Shown: positions 43,142-50,547 of the stretch, piece after piece | Layout of the letters: every line of letters begins with the position of its first letter | How positions within the stretch are numbered: position 1 is the first letter of the stretch | Notes under the pieces: model-generated | Told to the model about the DNA's origin: nothing | What the model saw: the letters and a program-made list of their open reading frames with translations, nothing else | Database searches by the model: none | Made by a program: the position numbers and the translations under genes | From: Rhodothermus marinus DSM 4252 | GTDB taxonomy: Bacteria; Bacteroidota; Rhodothermia; Rhodothermales; Rhodothermaceae | NCBI RefSeq assembly: GCF_000024845.1 | Contig: NC_013501.1 | Span: 1,654,874 to 1,718,873, forward strand | DNA: 64,000 nucleotides | Direction of reading: 5' to 3'

Positions 43142-43693
43142 CTACGGACCCATCGGGAGAACGGCACCGAACAGAAGGGTCGTCGTCGCAGAGACCGGCA
43201 CGTCGAGCGCAACCGGCAAGATCAGCGCCGGAGGGTACTCCCGGAGATCAGGATTGGCGGCAAAAACCGCCGTAACGACCCGCTGCAGACCTGCCAGAAG
43301 CGCTCCACCGCTTGCCTGCAGCAGCGGGGTCAGGATCGGCTCGGCCACCAGGCGAGGCACCAGCCCCAGCAGCCAGGCCACCACGGTCTCGTCCGAAGCC
43401 TCGGCCGGAAGCCCAAGCGCTGCACGGATGACCGCTCCCCCTTCTTTCTGCGCACAGACCCGCAGGAATGCCCGAACGAACGCTTCCGGCGTGGCGGGTC
43501 GATCGGCCAGCGCTTCCTGAAGGCCCTCCTCCAGCACCGATTCGGCCAGCACGCCCTGCAGCTGCACGCGCAGCCAGGCGGCATACGAAGCGCCGGAGAC
43601 CGGCCAGAGCGGACGCACCGCACCGACCAGCAACGCCAGCGCAAGCCCCAGGCTCACGCTGCGCAACACGCCGATATGCCGCAATCGCTTCAT
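43142..43693 (-). CDS. Exported or membrane-anchored hypothetical protein
   Basis: The start is taken at the ATG at 43693 (MKRLRHIG), giving 183 residues; another ATG at 43708 adds five. A basic start and hydrophobic segment (about 10-26) predict a signal peptide or anchor. The rest is helical with a hydrophobic C-terminal stretch (PALILPVALDVPVSATTTLLFGAVLP) that could be a second membrane segment. I do not recognise a domain. It lies 105 bp upstream of secD on the same strand and may be its leader gene. Confidence 0.6.
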   Translation of the reverse strand: MKRLRHIGVLRSVSLGLALALLVGAVRPLWPVSGASYAAWLRVQLQGVLAESVLEEGLQEALADRPATPEAFVRAFLRVCAQKEGGAVIRAALGLPAEASDETVVAWLLGLVPRLVAEPILTPLLQASGGALLAGLQRVVTAVFAANPDLREYPPALILPVALDVPVSATTTLLFGAVLPMGP

Positions 43694-43850
43694 CGCTGCA
43701 CGTTGCAACCGCCGCCTAATTTACGGCCCGGCATGGCCGGGGTCAACGGCCGGGCTTGAGCGTTCGGCGAAAACAGGGTGTGACACATAGCTGTCACCAC
43801 CTGAACCCTATACTGGCACCACGTTGGCAAAACAACTATCCGATAACGCC

Positions 43851-44039
43851 ATGAGCGACCGTCCCCGCCACATTTCCGAGATCTTACCGGAAGTGCTGGA
43901 ATATCTCCGGGCCGCCGGCGAAGCAACTTCGCCACAGGTGGCCCGGACGCAGACCCCCGAGCGTCTCCGCCCGGCCACTCAACGGATGGCAAAGGTGATC
44001 TCCACGCGCGCCCGCACCTCGATCTCGCCGGCGGCATAG
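43851..44039 (+). CDS. Possible small hypothetical protein
   Basis: A 62-residue frame starting at the ATG at 43851 reads MSDRPRHISEILPEVLEYL and continues through a plausible helical segment. The upstream 60 bases are relatively AT-rich. It overlaps the convergent SIMPL gene by 61 bp, and its last 20 residues are therefore antisense to that gene. Codon composition of the first 40 residues looks gene-like, but no family is recognised. It may be a real short gene or a chance frame. Confidence 0.35.
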   Translation: MSDRPRHISEILPEVLEYLRAAGEATSPQVARTQTPERLRPATQRMAKVISTRARTSISPAA

Positions 44040-44707
44040 GCCTCGGGCTCGGGCGCCGCTTCGGCCGTACGCAGCGCGGCCACGTCGGCCCGCCAGAGCG
44101 GCCGCGGGAATTCCAGCGCCTGCTCGGTGATCCGAATCGGATCGCCCACTTCTCGATTCAATTCGGCCAGCATCTGTCGGGCTTTCTCGCGGGCGTTGCG
44201 GACGGCCGCCTGCAGCGCCGCCAGCCGCACCGCCTCTCGGTTCGAGACGTCGTACTGAATGCCCTGCAGCCGATTGGCCCCCTGCTGCACCACGCGGGCT
44301 ACCACCTCTGGAAGGCGATCCAGATCGTCCAGTTCTACGCGCAGTACGCGCTGCACCTCATAGCCTTTCTCCTCCCACCGACGCAGGTCCGGGTTGTATT
44401 CCCGCATCGGGTGCAGCGTCAGCGCTTCCAGATGGAGTTTCCGTTCGTCAATGCCCAGTGCCCGCACGGCGTTGAGCGCCCGGCGCGACGCCTCGGCATT
44501 GCGCCGACGGGCCTGTTCCGGATCCAGATCGCGCGTGACCACCGCAAAACGCAGCGTCGCCCGATCCGGCTGCACGCGCACCACCCCTTCGCCCTGCACG
44601 GTGATCGTCGGGACGGCGGGCGTCTCCGTTCCCATCCGTATCACCTGCGCGCGGGCCGCCAGACACCCCGTCCAGGCCATCACCAGACCGATCAGCAGCA
44701 AACGCAT
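43979..44707 (-). CDS. SIMPL-domain (DUF541) exported protein
   Basis: The start is the ATG at 44707, which begins a clear signal peptide (MRLLLIGLVMAWTGCLAARAQ); the longer frame from a TTG at 44884 has no support. The 242-residue protein has the SIMPL pattern: ITVQGEGVVRVQPDRATLRFAVVT, then LRVELDDLDRLPEVVARVVQQGANRLQGIQYDVSN, and AVRNAREKARQMLAE. Family members are periplasmic or outer-membrane proteins of poorly defined function, some linked to oxidative stress or signalling. An internal cysteine in WTGCLA could make it a lipoprotein. It is divergent from the tiny lipoprotein gene at 44935. Confidence 0.85.
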   Translation of the reverse strand: MRLLLIGLVMAWTGCLAARAQVIRMGTETPAVPTITVQGEGVVRVQPDRATLRFAVVTRDLDPEQARRRNAEASRRALNAVRALGIDERKLHLEALTLHPMREYNPDLRRWEEKGYEVQRVLRVELDDLDRLPEVVARVVQQGANRLQGIQYDVSNREAVRLAALQAAVRNAREKARQMLAELNREVGDPIRITEQALEFPRPLWRADVAALRTAEAAPEPEAYAAGEIEVRARVEITFAIR

Positions 44708-44934
44708 AATAACCCTCCGTTTGATTGACAGGCAACTCTCCTGTATGAACGAAGCACCCCGGATCATTCGCACGGACTTACACCATACCGACCGAGATCG
44801 CCTTACGCGCCCACCGTCAGGATCAAGACACACAAACCGATTCCCCCGGGCATCTAACGCCCGAACTATACGCACCAATTGCAATGCGCACCGTCTTTGG
44901 CTGAAAATACACCTGCCACCAGACGGAGTCTCTC

Positions 44935-45033
44935 ATGCGACGCCTTTCGTTTCGCCTCGTGCTCGGCCTGAGCCTGCTGGCCCTGCTGGTACTGAACGGT
45001 TGCGATTTCCTCCCTGGCTTCCCTGAAATCTGA
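44935..45033 (+). CDS. Very small lipoprotein (32 residues)
   Basis: An ATG at 44935 follows a good ribosome-binding site (GGAG about 8 bases upstream) and encodes MRRLSFRLVLGLSLLALLVLNGC and then DFLPGFPEI before TGA at 45031-45033. This has everything expected of a lipoprotein signal: two arginines, a hydrophobic core and a lipobox LNGC with the cysteine at residue 23. The mature lipopeptide would be only 10 residues. Its stop lies one base from the stop of the convergent asnS gene. Short lipopeptides of the entericidin type are known in other bacteria, but this one is not recognisably related. The signal features make a chance frame unlikely. Confidence 0.65.
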   Translation: MRRLSFRLVLGLSLLALLVLNGCDFLPGFPEI

Positions 45034-46539
45034 TCACGGTGTCAGGCGGCCGAGCAGTCGCGGGAAGGGGATCACCTCCCGCACGTGGTGCACGCCGCAG
45101 ATCCAGGCCAGCGTCCGTTCGAGTCCGAGCCCGAACCCGCTGTGCGGTACCGTGCCGTAGCGGCGCAGGTCCAGGTACCACTCGAACGCCTCACGGGGTA
45201 GTCCGTGCGCCTCGATCTGGGCCTCCAGAAAGGCCAGGTCGTCGGCCCGCTGGCCGCCCCCGATGATCTCGCCGTAGCCTTCCGGCGCGAGCACGTCCAT
45301 GCCGAGCGCCAGGCGGTCGTCTTCCGGGTCGCGCTTCATATAGAAGGCCTTGATGGCGGCCGGAAAGCGATGGACGATGATCGGCCGGTCGAAGTGCCAG
45401 GTCAGCACCGTCTCGTCACTGTTGCCGAAGTCGTTGCCCCACTGGAAATTCCGGGCCGACTCCTTCCAGAGCGGCAGGTTTTCCAGTTCTTTTTCGATTT
45501 CGTCCAGGCGCTGGTTGATTTCGATCTCGCGGGCATCGATGCGCCGCTTTTCGGCTTTTTTGGCCTGACCGTAGCGTCGTCGGTTTTCGGCCCGTTCGGT
45601 TTCGAGTTGTCGTTGCTCTTCTTTCAGCGCTTCGATGCGGGCGTCGATCATGCGGGCCGTCTCATCGCTTCGGAGCAGTTCGACGGCCTCCGAGTAGGTC
45701 AGGCGCGGGAACGGCGGCTGCACGCGTTCCAGCGCCGCAATGTCACGGCCGAGCACCTCCAGTTCGGTCCGGCAGTGGCGCAGCACCTCCTGCACGATGT
45801 GCACCACCAGCTCCTCGGCCAGCGCCATGTTCATTTCCAGATCGTAGAACGCCATTTCCGGCTCGATCATCCAGAATTCGGTCAGGTGCCGGCGCGTTTT
45901 GGACTTTTCGGCACGGAACGTCGGGCCGAACGTGTACACCTTTCCGAAGGCCATCGCCATGGCCTCGGCGTAGAGCTGGCCACTCTGACTCAGGTAGGCT
46001 TTGTCGCCGAAGTAGTCGATCTCGAACAGCGTCGTGGTGCCCTCGACGGCGTTGCCCGTCAGGATCGGCGCGTCGAGTTGCAGAAAGCCGCGTTCCTGGA
46101 AAAAATCGTGGATGGCCCGGATCACCCGGTTGCGAATGCGCATGATGGCCCATGGCCGGCGGCTGCGCAGCCACAGGTGCCGGTGGTCCATCAGAAACTC
46201 GATCCCGTGCGGCTTGGGCGTGATCGGATAGTTTTCGGAAGGGCCGATGAGTTGCAAACGCTCAACGTGCACCTCGTGGCCGCCGATCTGGCGCTCGTCG
46301 CGCACGACGGTACCCACCACCTCCAGCGAGCACTCCTGCGTGGCCTCCTCGGCCACCTGCCAGGTGTCGGCGTCCACCCTGTCCTGCGCCACCACGCACT
46401 GCACCAGACCGGTGCCGTCGCGCAGGATCAGAAAGTGCAGCCCTTTCGAGCTTCGCTTGTTGTACAGCCAGCCTTTGAGCGTGACGGTCTGGCCCACGTA
46501 CCGGGACAATTCCTCAATGTATTGAAACGGCAGTTCCAT
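45034..46539 (-). CDS. asnS: Asparagine--tRNA ligase
   Basis: The start is the ATG at 46539 ([17 protein letters not shown]), giving 501 residues; a frame-open extension to 46620 has no family similarity. The N-terminal OB fold ([26 protein letters not shown]) reads the anticodon. Class II motifs follow: [44 protein letters not shown] and the C-terminal [34 protein letters not shown] is AsnRS-like rather than AspRS-like. A charged coiled-coil insertion of about 70 residues (292-362) lies before FQWGNDFG, making the protein longer than typical bacterial AsnRS. Confidence 0.95.
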
Positions 46540-46734: not shown

Positions 46735-49700
46735 ATGTATTTCAAACTATGCTATTGCTTACTTGTTGTTATTTTTCTTTTCGCGAGTCTGACGCCGGCA
46801 GCCGAAGCTCAAATCTTTTCAACCACGACCGGTGGTAGCTGGACCGATCCGAATACGTGGATAGGCGGCATCGTACCCAGCGTAAACGATAGTGTCGTGG
46901 TACGGGGTCCTGTAGTTCTAAACAATAATGTCCAGGTTCGCGGCCTCACCGTAGCCGACACGCTTCGCATCGGCAGCTACACGCTCACCGTCGACCACCT
47001 CCTGGTCGACGGCGCCCTCCTGCCCCTGACCGGCTCCTACCCCATCGCCCAGGTCCGCACCTCCCTGACCAACAACGGCGCCATCCAACTCTACCGACTC
47101 GCCTTCCTCGACAACGCCACCTACCGCCAGGCCCCCCAGGCGCAGCTCTCCATCAACATCTTCCACCTCGGATCATCCGGCAGCAGCACCAACGGCGCCA
47201 ACCTCACCCTCCAGATCGACTCCCTCCTCAGCGGAACCATCGCAGATCTCCAACCCCAGAGCGGCACCCTCCACCTCACGCCAGGTGCCCGACTCATCCT
47301 CCGCAACAACTCCAGACTCCGCGGACCCGGAACCCTCCGGTGCCCCGACAACGCCTCCTGCCGCATCGAAGGTCAAACACAACTCTACGGCCTCACACTC
47401 AACGGAAATTTCCGCCTCCACGACAACCACCAGCTCCTCGCCACAACCAACGTCAACGGCACGCTCACCATCGCCGACACGCTTCGCATCGGCAGCTACA
47501 CGCTCACCGTCGACCACCTCCTGGTCGACGGCGCCCTCCTGCCCCTGACCGGCTCCTACCCCATCGCCCAGGTCCGCACCTCCCTGACCAACAACGGCGC
47601 CATCCAACTCTACCGACTCGCCTTCCTCGACAACGCCACCTACCGCCAGGCCCCCCAGGCGCAGCTCTCCATCAACATCTTCCACCTCGGATCATCCGGC
47701 AGCAGCACCAACGGCGCCAACCTCACCCTCCAGATCGACTCCCTCCTCAGCGGAACCATCGCAGATCTCCAACCCCAGAGCGGCACCCTCCACCTCACGC
47801 CAGGTGCCCGACTCATCCTCCGCAACAACTCCAGACTCCGCGGACCCGGAACCCTCCGGTGCCCCGACAACGCCTCCTGCCGCATCGAAGGTCAAACACA
47901 ACTCTACGGCCTCACACTCAACGGAAATTTCCGCCTCCACGACAACCACCAGCTCCTCGCCACAACCAACGTCAACGGCACGCTCACCATCGCCGACACG
48001 CTTCGCATCGGCAGCTACACGCTCACCGTCGACCACCTCTTGGTCAACGGCGCCCTCCTGCCCCTGACCGGCTCCTACCCCATCGCCCAGGTCCGCACCT
48101 CCCTGACCAACAACGGCGCCATCCAACTCTACCGGCTCCTTCTGATCGGCACGCGCCCTCGCAGGATCTGGGCGAAAGGATCGATTCAAGGGGATATTCG
48201 TATCGACGGTCAGTTTTCACTTATGGATCGCAGCTATCTGCCTTATTTCACTATTTCCTCAAACGGCCTGCTTATTGTTGCCGATACTCTGGAGATCGGC
48301 GATGGTCCTTTCAATGGAACAGAGCGGTTGATCGTTACCGGCGTGCTTCTGGCACGACGTTCTGTAGCGATTTCCGACTTTGCATTACCCAGCCTGTCGA
48401 TCCAGGGCCTCAGCGCGCCAGACACCACCGACACACTCCTCATAGCCTACCATGGGCTGAGCGCTCCCCTTTCGTTTGCCAATGCCGCGTTGGTCTACTG
48501 GCAGTTTCAAACCGACGCCACAACTGTGTCCAAACGCACAATACCCGACACCACAGGTCCTCAAGCTGCCACCCTCACCTTTTCCTATCAGGATCGGCAA
48601 ATTGCACAGATGTCGGAAGATTCGCTTCAGGTATTTTATTCGTCCGATGATTCTACCTGGCAACCTTTCGAAGGAGAAGTAAACAGGAATACCTCTCAGA
48701 ATACGATTACACTACAGAATGCTTTACTCCATGGCTTTTATACGCTTGCTCCACCAAGTGCAGCGCCTGTAGGGGCTACCCCTATCATTTATGTTGATCT
48801 GCTCGGCCGTCGCACCTTGCGAATTGGTGCTCCTAATCGATATACGCTTTTTTATGCAAACCTGGGGCGAACTTCCAGTGGGCCTATTTTTTTGGAAATG
48901 CAATATGATACACTGGCAATGCGGTTAGAATATGTAGAGATTATAAACGAAGCAAACGATAATGTTGAACACTTGCCTCCTGATAGTGTATTAATTACCA
49001 CCGGCCAGGTTGTACTATTAGGGCGTCCTCTTGAACCTGGAGAAACTGCGTCGTTTGACCTTGTCTTCACGGGGCTTCCAGGAGCCCTCCCTAAACGTTC
49101 TGCGGAAATACTGATTTTACCAGCACTGGCCGCTTTTGCTCTGCCTGTCCTCAAATGGGCACTGGTTGGAATTGTTACAGGATTTGTCAAAGACTTACTT
49201 GACCAGTATCTCTGTGTAGAAATGTGGAAACCAGTTTCTTCAGATGCCAATGTTCAGAAAGAGCTCAGTCAAGCTGCCTGGAGAGCTTTGAAAAAAACAG
49301 GCTCCGAGTGGGTCTCCAGTCCCCAGAAACCTGCCAAAGCGCTTCAGGACAAATTCGAGGAAGAAGTTAAAGATAAAGTAAAAGAGGGCATCTTGCCGGC
49401 CTGGGTTCTGGATGCCATTAAGGGACCTATAAAAATAGGAGAACTGATGTATGATGCCCTGAATTGCTTGCTGAAAGGAGCAGAAACATACCTGAACGCC
49501 TCAGCTTCTACCCGAAGCTTTACTTTGCAGCCGGTACGCTCGTGGGATCCCAATGAAAAAACAGGACCTACCGGGGTAGGCGGGGGCCAATTTCTAACCG
49601 ATGTTGGTCGGCTACACTATACCATCTTCTTTGAAAACAAAGCGGAAGCCACTGCTCCGGCTTACCGCATTGAGATCATCGACACGCTTGATGGGCGGCT

Positions 49701-50547
49701 CGATCCTTCCACCGTCCGTTTTGAACGAGCCAGTCATGAAGGATGGAATTTTACTGTAACCGGTAACGTGTTACGCTGGGAAATTGAAGGTATTGAACTA
49801 CCCCCCAATGTGAATCCCCCCGAAGGCGAAGGATATGTCAGCTTCTCTATAGAACCCTTTGCCGGTCAGGTTATCGACGGTACCCGTATTGAAAATCGAG
49901 CGACCATTACTTTTGACCTGAATCCCCCCATTACTACCAATACCGTATATAACACATTCGACCTGGCTCCTCCTGTAATCACACTACTGCCACTGGCCGC
50001 CGAAACTGAAGAGGACTCCGTGGTTATTCGCTGGCAGGCACACGATAACGCTTCGGGCGTAGCTCGAATCAACGTGTTTCGCTCCGTTGATGGAGGACCA
50101 TTCGAACTGGTCGCCCCTGTTCCTGCTCAAACGGACTCCGTAGCGTTACCTGTAGAAGCAGGCCATACTTATCGTTTCTATGCAACTGCACAGGATTTTG
50201 TAGGGAATTCCACCTTACAGCGTTCCAACGAGGTTACTACTCATGTAATAGCCGTTGGCGTAAACGACAATGCTAACTTCCCTAATCAGTTTGCACTGGA
50301 CGCAGTATATCCCAATCCATTCCGAACCGGAGTGACCTTCCGAGTAGGTTTGCCCCAACGGGCACATGTACGACTTGTCGTTTACGATCTGCTGGGTAGA
50401 GAGGTCGCACGCGTTGTGGATCAGGAGCTTCCGGCCGGGTGGCATGAATTGAGATGGTCTGCCCCGCCAATCGCCAGCGGACTGTATCTGGTTCGCTTTG
50501 AAGCTGGGCAAACGCAACATATGCGAACATTCCTGCGATTGCGGTAA
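46735..50547 (+). CDS. Large surface protein with tandem repeats and T9SS sorting domain
   Basis: This 1270-residue protein starts with a signal peptide ending near AEAQ (residue 26) and a G8-like strand segment (GGSWTDPNTWIGGIVPSVNDSVVV). Residues 74-246 and 247-419 are identical repeats and 420-467 a partial third, rich in Leu/Asn/Thr and predicted to form a beta-helix. The middle has a helical stretch (about 790-910) and a conserved SWDPNEKTGP...FENKAEATAPAYRIEIIDTLD domain (about 938-1075). An Fn3-like domain (about 1090-1170) and a type A T9SS sorting domain at the end (YPNPFRTGVTFRVG, VVYDLLGREVA, GLYLVRFEAG) follow. The 3' half is clearly richer in A+T than the repeat block. Probably an adhesin or surface-layer-associated protein. 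Confidence 0.85.
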   Translation: MYFKLCYCLLVVIFLFASLTPAAEAQIFSTTTGGSWTDPNTWIGGIVPSVNDSVVVRGPVVLNNNVQVRGLTVADTLRIGSYTLTVDHLLVDGALLPLTGSYPIAQVRTSLTNNGAIQLYRLAFLDNATYRQAPQAQLSINIFHLGSSGSSTNGANLTLQIDSLLSGTIADLQPQSGTLHLTPGARLILRNNSRLRGPGTLRCPDNASCRIEGQTQLYGLTLNGNFRLHDNHQLLATTNVNGTLTIADTLRIGSYTLTVDHLLVDGALLPLTGSYPIAQVRTSLTNNGAIQLYRLAFLDNATYRQAPQAQLSINIFHLGSSGSSTNGANLTLQIDSLLSGTIADLQPQSGTLHLTPGARLILRNNSRLRGPGTLRCPDNASCRIEGQTQLYGLTLNGNFRLHDNHQLLATTNVNGTLTIADTLRIGSYTLTVDHLLVNGALLPLTGSYPIAQVRTSLTNNGAIQLYRLLLIGTRPRRIWAKGSIQGDIRIDGQFSLMDRSYLPYFTISSNGLLIVADTLEIGDGPFNGTERLIVTGVLLARRSVAISDFALPSLSIQGLSAPDTTDTLLIAYHGLSAPLSFANAALVYWQFQTDATTVSKRTIPDTTGPQAATLTFSYQDRQIAQMSEDSLQVFYSSDDSTWQPFEGEVNRNTSQNTITLQNALLHGFYTLAPPSAAPVGATPIIYVDLLGRRTLRIGAPNRYTLFYANLGRTSSGPIFLEMQYDTLAMRLEYVEIINEANDNVEHLPPDSVLITTGQVVLLGRPLEPGETASFDLVFTGLPGALPKRSAEILILPALAAFALPVLKWALVGIVTGFVKDLLDQYLCVEMWKPVSSDANVQKELSQAAWRALKKTGSEWVSSPQKPAKALQDKFEEEVKDKVKEGILPAWVLDAIKGPIKIGELMYDALNCLLKGAETYLNASASTRSFTLQPVRSWDPNEKTGPTGVGGGQFLTDVGRLHYTIFFENKAEATAPAYRIEIIDTLDGRLDPSTVRFERASHEGWNFTVTGNVLRWEIEGIELPPNVNPPEGEGYVSFSIEPFAGQVIDGTRIENRATITFDLNPPITTNTVYNTFDLAPPVITLLPLAAETEEDSVVIRWQAHDNASGVARINVFRSVDGGPFELVAPVPAQTDSVALPVEAGHTYRFYATAQDFVGNSTLQRSNEVTTHVIAVGVNDNANFPNQFALDAVYPNPFRTGVTFRVGLPQRAHVRLVVYDLLGREVARVVDQELPAGWHELRWSAPPIASGLYLVRFEAGQTQHMRTFLRLR
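46954..47472 (+). repeat. Tandem repeat copy 1 (519 bp, 173 codons)
   Basis: This is the first copy of a direct repeat inside the surface-protein gene. It begins at GCCGACACGCTTCGC and runs to just before the same sequence at 47473. By inspection it appears identical to copy 2 throughout its length at the nucleotide level. Confidence 0.93.
47473..47991 (+). repeat. Tandem repeat copy 2 (519 bp)
   Basis: The second copy has the same length and, by inspection, the same sequence as copy 1 (46954-47472). Silent positions are also shared, so the duplication is recent or kept uniform by recombination. Confidence 0.93.
47992..48134 (+). repeat. Partial tandem repeat copy 3 (143 bp)
   Basis: The start of a third unit is identical except for two changes (CTG to TTG, and GAC to AAC changing Asp to Asn). 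Similarity ends abruptly after CTCTACCG, where unrelated coding sequence (LLLIGTRPRRIWAKG) follows in frame. Confidence 0.88.

Follow-up and report, generated by a model that had tools for sequence, protein, structure and literature searches.

Between the SIMPL and asnS genes of Rhodothermus marinus DSM 4252 lies an ATG-initiated open reading frame (ORF) of only 32 codons, which raises the question of whether so short a frame is a gene in its own right. We analyzed this ORF within a 64,000-nucleotide stretch of DNA (the window) of a genome that comprises 3,386,737 bp in two contigs. The reading that we favor, with a probability of about 0.7, is that of a real, translated lipoprotein gene restricted to Rhodothermus, whose product would be expressed and lipidated.

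The tiny ORF and its neighbors

When the sequence was read again, the coordinates and the translation given for the ORF in a preliminary description proved exact. The features of the locus are as follows.

44935–45033, + strand: tiny ORF, putative lipoprotein gene, ATG start, 32 codons, product MRRLSFRLVLGLSLLALLVLNGCDFLPGFPEI; homologues lie at the same place in genomes G002, G005, G004 and G006
44924–44928, + strand: ribosome-binding site CGGAG, common to all five gene-bearing species
44935–45000, + strand: predicted signal peptide, residues 1–22, ending in L-N-G ahead of the cysteine
45001–45030, + strand: predicted mature lipopeptide CDFLPGFPEI, with Cys23 as the would-be lipidated +1 residue
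44708–44934, no strand assigned: 227-nt divergent intergenic region, from SIMPL to the tiny gene
43979–44707, − strand: SIMPL (DUF541) gene, divergent neighbor (Pfam PF04402, 157.7 bits)
45034–46539, − strand: asnS (asparaginyl-tRNA synthetase), convergent neighbor (PF00152 and PF01336; the ATG of MELPFQY is at 46539)

The ribosome-binding site, lipoprotein signal and lipobox that had been claimed for the ORF were all found, as the CGGAG six bases 5′ of the ATG, the signal peptide of residues 1–22 and the motif LNGC. Its placement between SIMPL and asnS also held, with a refinement: the tiny gene is on the plus strand and the other two are on the minus strand, so that it diverges from SIMPL and converges on asnS. 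The TGA stop of the tiny gene (45031–45033), described earlier as one base before that of asnS, immediately adjoins the asnS stop codon (45034–45036). The intergenic region presumably holds the promoters of both SIMPL and the tiny gene; no sigma-70 consensus site was found on its plus strand, and neither a clear promoter nor a clear terminator for the tiny gene was seen at the locus. Because no terminator separates the two genes, transcription of the tiny gene probably enters asnS.

Two other readings of the locus were considered and set aside. An asparagine-attenuation leader for asnS was ruled out: the ORF is located at the 3′ end of that gene and antisense to it, and contains one Asn codon. 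The intergenic region is flanked by a 14-nt inverted repeat (44654–44667 and 45038–45051, 93% complementary), which might have marked an invertible segment; the repeat lies within coding sequence and is absent from G005, and we took it as a chance occurrence.

The surrounding genes have features of their own. On the minus strand, asnS contains some 60 residues (45480–45680) whose sequence is highly charged and coiled-coil-like, a feature also present in several Rhodothermus relatives. Beside asnS, a 1270-residue ORF (46735–50547, plus strand) contains internal repeats, each about 180 residues long and nearly identical to one another (TIADTLRIGSYTLTVDHLL...), and its C-terminal region resembles, by eye, a type IX secretion sorting domain. 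Between SIMPL and SecD, a 188-residue ORF (43142–43708, minus strand) gave no Pfam match; L007 may contain a related ORF.

Rarity, conservation and distribution

The tiny ORF was the sole match in the window to a strict filter (an ORF of at most 60 codons with a Shine–Dalgarno site, signal peptide and lipobox), and 20 Markov shuffles of the window gave none. With a looser filter it was again the sole match in 864 kb of the genome, and four 800-kb shuffles yielded one match, so that an ORF of this kind would be expected by chance about once in every few Mb. Since shuffled sequence yields an occasional match, this rarity is suggestive and not proof of a gene, and conservation is the stronger evidence.

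The preliminary description had named conservation of the frame and lipobox in close relatives as the check on its proposal, and the ORF passed it: among seven Rhodothermus species genomes, five have a tiny gene between SIMPL and asnS, with products of 27–35 aa (G000, MRRLSFRLVLGLSLLALLVLNGCDFLPGFPEI; G002, MRRLSFRLVLGLSLLALLVLNGCADLCALTGSCFP; G005, MRCLSFRLVLGLSLLVLLVLNGCELLPPII; G004, MRRLLSLMLLVVTFLLLNGCELLSPVF; G006, MRRLLSLILLVTTLLLLNGCELLPPVF). Alignment of the five showed an invariant M-R start, within an M-R-x-L n-region pattern, and an invariant L-N-G-C, and each homologue retained CGGAG and the ATG. Signal-peptide length differs between the two clades by 9 nt, in frame. Between G000 and G005, 3 of 69 sites differed in the signal region versus 41 of 227 upstream (binomial, 0.0007), and between G004 and G006, 10 of 84 sites differed in the ORF versus 48 of 222 upstream (binomial, 0.016). 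The ORF changes in the latter pair fell 5/1/4 on the three codon positions and were synonymous in five of the nine changed codons. In a neutral simulation, which included no indels and scored the frame and lipobox without ribosome-site conservation or peptide similarity, 10 of 20,000 runs preserved both in each of the four simulated tips. In the real genomes, frame, ribosome site and cysteine persist in five species across about 41% third-position divergence. Taken together, these comparisons suggest a modest but consistent coding constraint on the ORF, drawn from few sites and few independent lineages.

The mature tail, of 8–13 residues counting the cysteine, had been stressed in the preliminary description, yet it is the least conserved part of the protein. 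After the cysteine, the other homologues read ELLPPII, ELLPPVF, ELLSPVF and ADLCALTGSCFP; the five-member alignment shares a loose C-[DEA]-x-L-[PSC] beginning and a proline near the end. G000 and G002 have 69 identical signal-region bases followed by unrelated tails, and G002 carries about 30 additional bases ahead of asnS; the change of tail is a replacement or an indel event. Upstream divergence of this pair is only 2.6%, so that the identity of their signal regions is unremarkable by itself. The mature tail of G002 (CADLCALTGSCFP; L002:1736–1843), which follows a signal peptide identical to that in the window, contains two more cysteines, potentially able to close a small loop.

In G003 and G001 the gap between asnS and SIMPL is short, and both the tiny gene and the divergent intergenic block are missing; the gaps are also shorter in the three outgroups examined. 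Of the trees built from asnS, SIMPL and SecD, two joined G003 to G004 plus G006 (support 91 and 71), and the remaining one grouped it with G001 (support 91). The tiny gene was likely lost in G003, a point that these trees do not settle.

Searches beyond the genus yielded nothing comparable. A profile search of 114 genomes of the order gave 50–64 bits for the five members, from which the profile itself had been built, and about 20 bits or less for everything else. A search of viral contigs found no relatives. In the single match from a pattern-based GTDB scan, L058 (Bdellovibrionales), LVLNGC stands in the signal peptide of a longer protein that looks lipocalin-like by eye, and the match was rejected. 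The three short-frame matches that were read within the order (L039, L040 and L042) were likewise discarded, as a comparable tiny lipoprotein was absent from them. Judged from these sequences, the tiny gene is genus-restricted within the reach of the searches, a reach that very short peptides limit. The earlier proposal of a new small lipoprotein family is therefore supported within the genus Rhodothermus by the conserved frame and lipobox.

Lipoprotein features and known small lipoproteins

All five products combine a positively charged n-region (M-R-x-L), a hydrophobic core and LNGC. The classic lipobox consensus is [LVI][ASTVI][GAS]C, and the Asn at position −2 lies outside it. The lipobox named in the preliminary description is thus present and departs from the consensus at this residue, which none of eight longer lipoproteins selected with a simple filter showed. 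The lipoprotein reading is weakest at this Asn, whose invariance in the five homologues suggests that it is tolerated; the variable tail and the lack of the gene in two of the seven species also count against this reading.

The genome encodes LspA, Lgt and Lnt, with matches over the cut-offs (PF01252, 128.8 bits; PF01790, 137.9 bits; TIGR00546, 231.9 bits), which makes an acylated lipopeptide feasible. In the proposed pathway, Sec would insert the 32-residue precursor into the membrane, Lgt would attach diacylglycerol to the cysteine, LspA would cleave off the signal peptide of 22 residues, and a third acyl chain might be added by Lnt, leaving an acylated peptide of 8–13 residues presumably anchored in the cell envelope. 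Residue +2 is acidic in four of the five members. In E. coli, an acidic +2 residue leads to inner-membrane retention; by this rule the product would favor the inner membrane, although the rule may not hold in this phylum, where it is not established. The lipoprotein export signal of Bacteroidota is rich in acidic residues. That this signal is a distinct one, located after the cysteine, is stated in a study of these bacteria (PMC5080379).

Known small lipoproteins offered only partial likenesses. LptM (formerly YifL) of the Enterobacteriaceae (PMC10567701) is likewise a small lipoprotein, one that places its acylated N-terminus at its partner's functional site, but differs in its size of about 6 kDa and in its own PF13627 motif. 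Its profile matched three of the five members weakly (best E 0.027); the window protein reached 11.0 bits against the NF047847 cut-off of 27.7, over the signal peptide only, and had no match to Pfam PF13627. The entericidin A/B family also includes tiny lipoproteins, but their mature parts are longer, for example 32 aa in Atu8019 (PMC7296081); here, entericidin A matched two members only, with a nonsignificant best E of 0.18. Rz1-type spanin lipoproteins are similarly very short and gave a weak match (E about 0.1), but no phage genes were seen beside the tiny gene, which has no Rz partner and encodes no mature part of spanin length. Because these matches are at the level of the signal peptide and below the cut-offs, we assigned the protein to neither LptM, entericidin A nor Rz1.

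Alternative readings and possible function

The intergenic block and the ORF occur together and are absent together, and transcription probably runs on into asnS. Both observations would also fit a region conserved as DNA or RNA, with divergent promoters or an untranslated RNA running antisense across the end of asnS, in which the ORF is incidental. We regard this as unlikely: the ORF is better conserved than the DNA upstream of it, the length difference between the clades is a multiple of three, the RNA fold energy equals that of shuffled sequences (z 0.01), and a search of the region against Rfam gave no family.

Quite unlikely, in our judgment, is a tiny single-span membrane peptide with an unlipidated cysteine, possibly toxic and repressed by antisense RNA reading through from asnS, as in type I toxin–antitoxin systems. 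The 27–35-aa product is very hydrophobic, the convergent asnS mRNA could read through, and a weak terminator-like site lies beyond the ORF (minus strand, 44925–44910). By eye, G004 shows no such site, however; LNGC is invariant while the sequence that follows it varies, and searches of the protein against toxin, PADLOC/defence and phage families gave no match above cut-off. Finally, a chance or decaying ORF, such as the leftover signal peptide of a formerly longer lipoprotein, would agree with the very short, variable mature part, the loss or absence in G003 and G001 and the chance rate given above, but is very improbable given the retention of frame, ribosome site and cysteine over such divergence and the failure to find a longer homologue at the locus in seven Rhodothermus genomes and three outgroups.

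The role of membrane signal or toxin suggested in the preliminary description was neither supported nor contradicted by these results, in which no family match and no antitoxin partner emerged. For the translated lipoprotein that we favor, the role we tentatively put first is that of a small accessory protein or modulator, anchored in the membrane, of an envelope complex. More speculatively, the functional unit might consist of the signal peptide plus the acylated cysteine, in a lipoprotein born within one genus and pared down almost to its lipid anchor, with a nearly free tail and with either the released signal peptide or the acylated N-terminus as the acting part.

The tiny gene would be a good example, in a thermophile, of a gene below the usual gene-caller size, and its predicted mature lipoprotein is very short. 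With the gene present in five species and absent in two, and with shorter gaps in the outgroups, the locus would be suited to studying how a lipoprotein gene arises or is lost.
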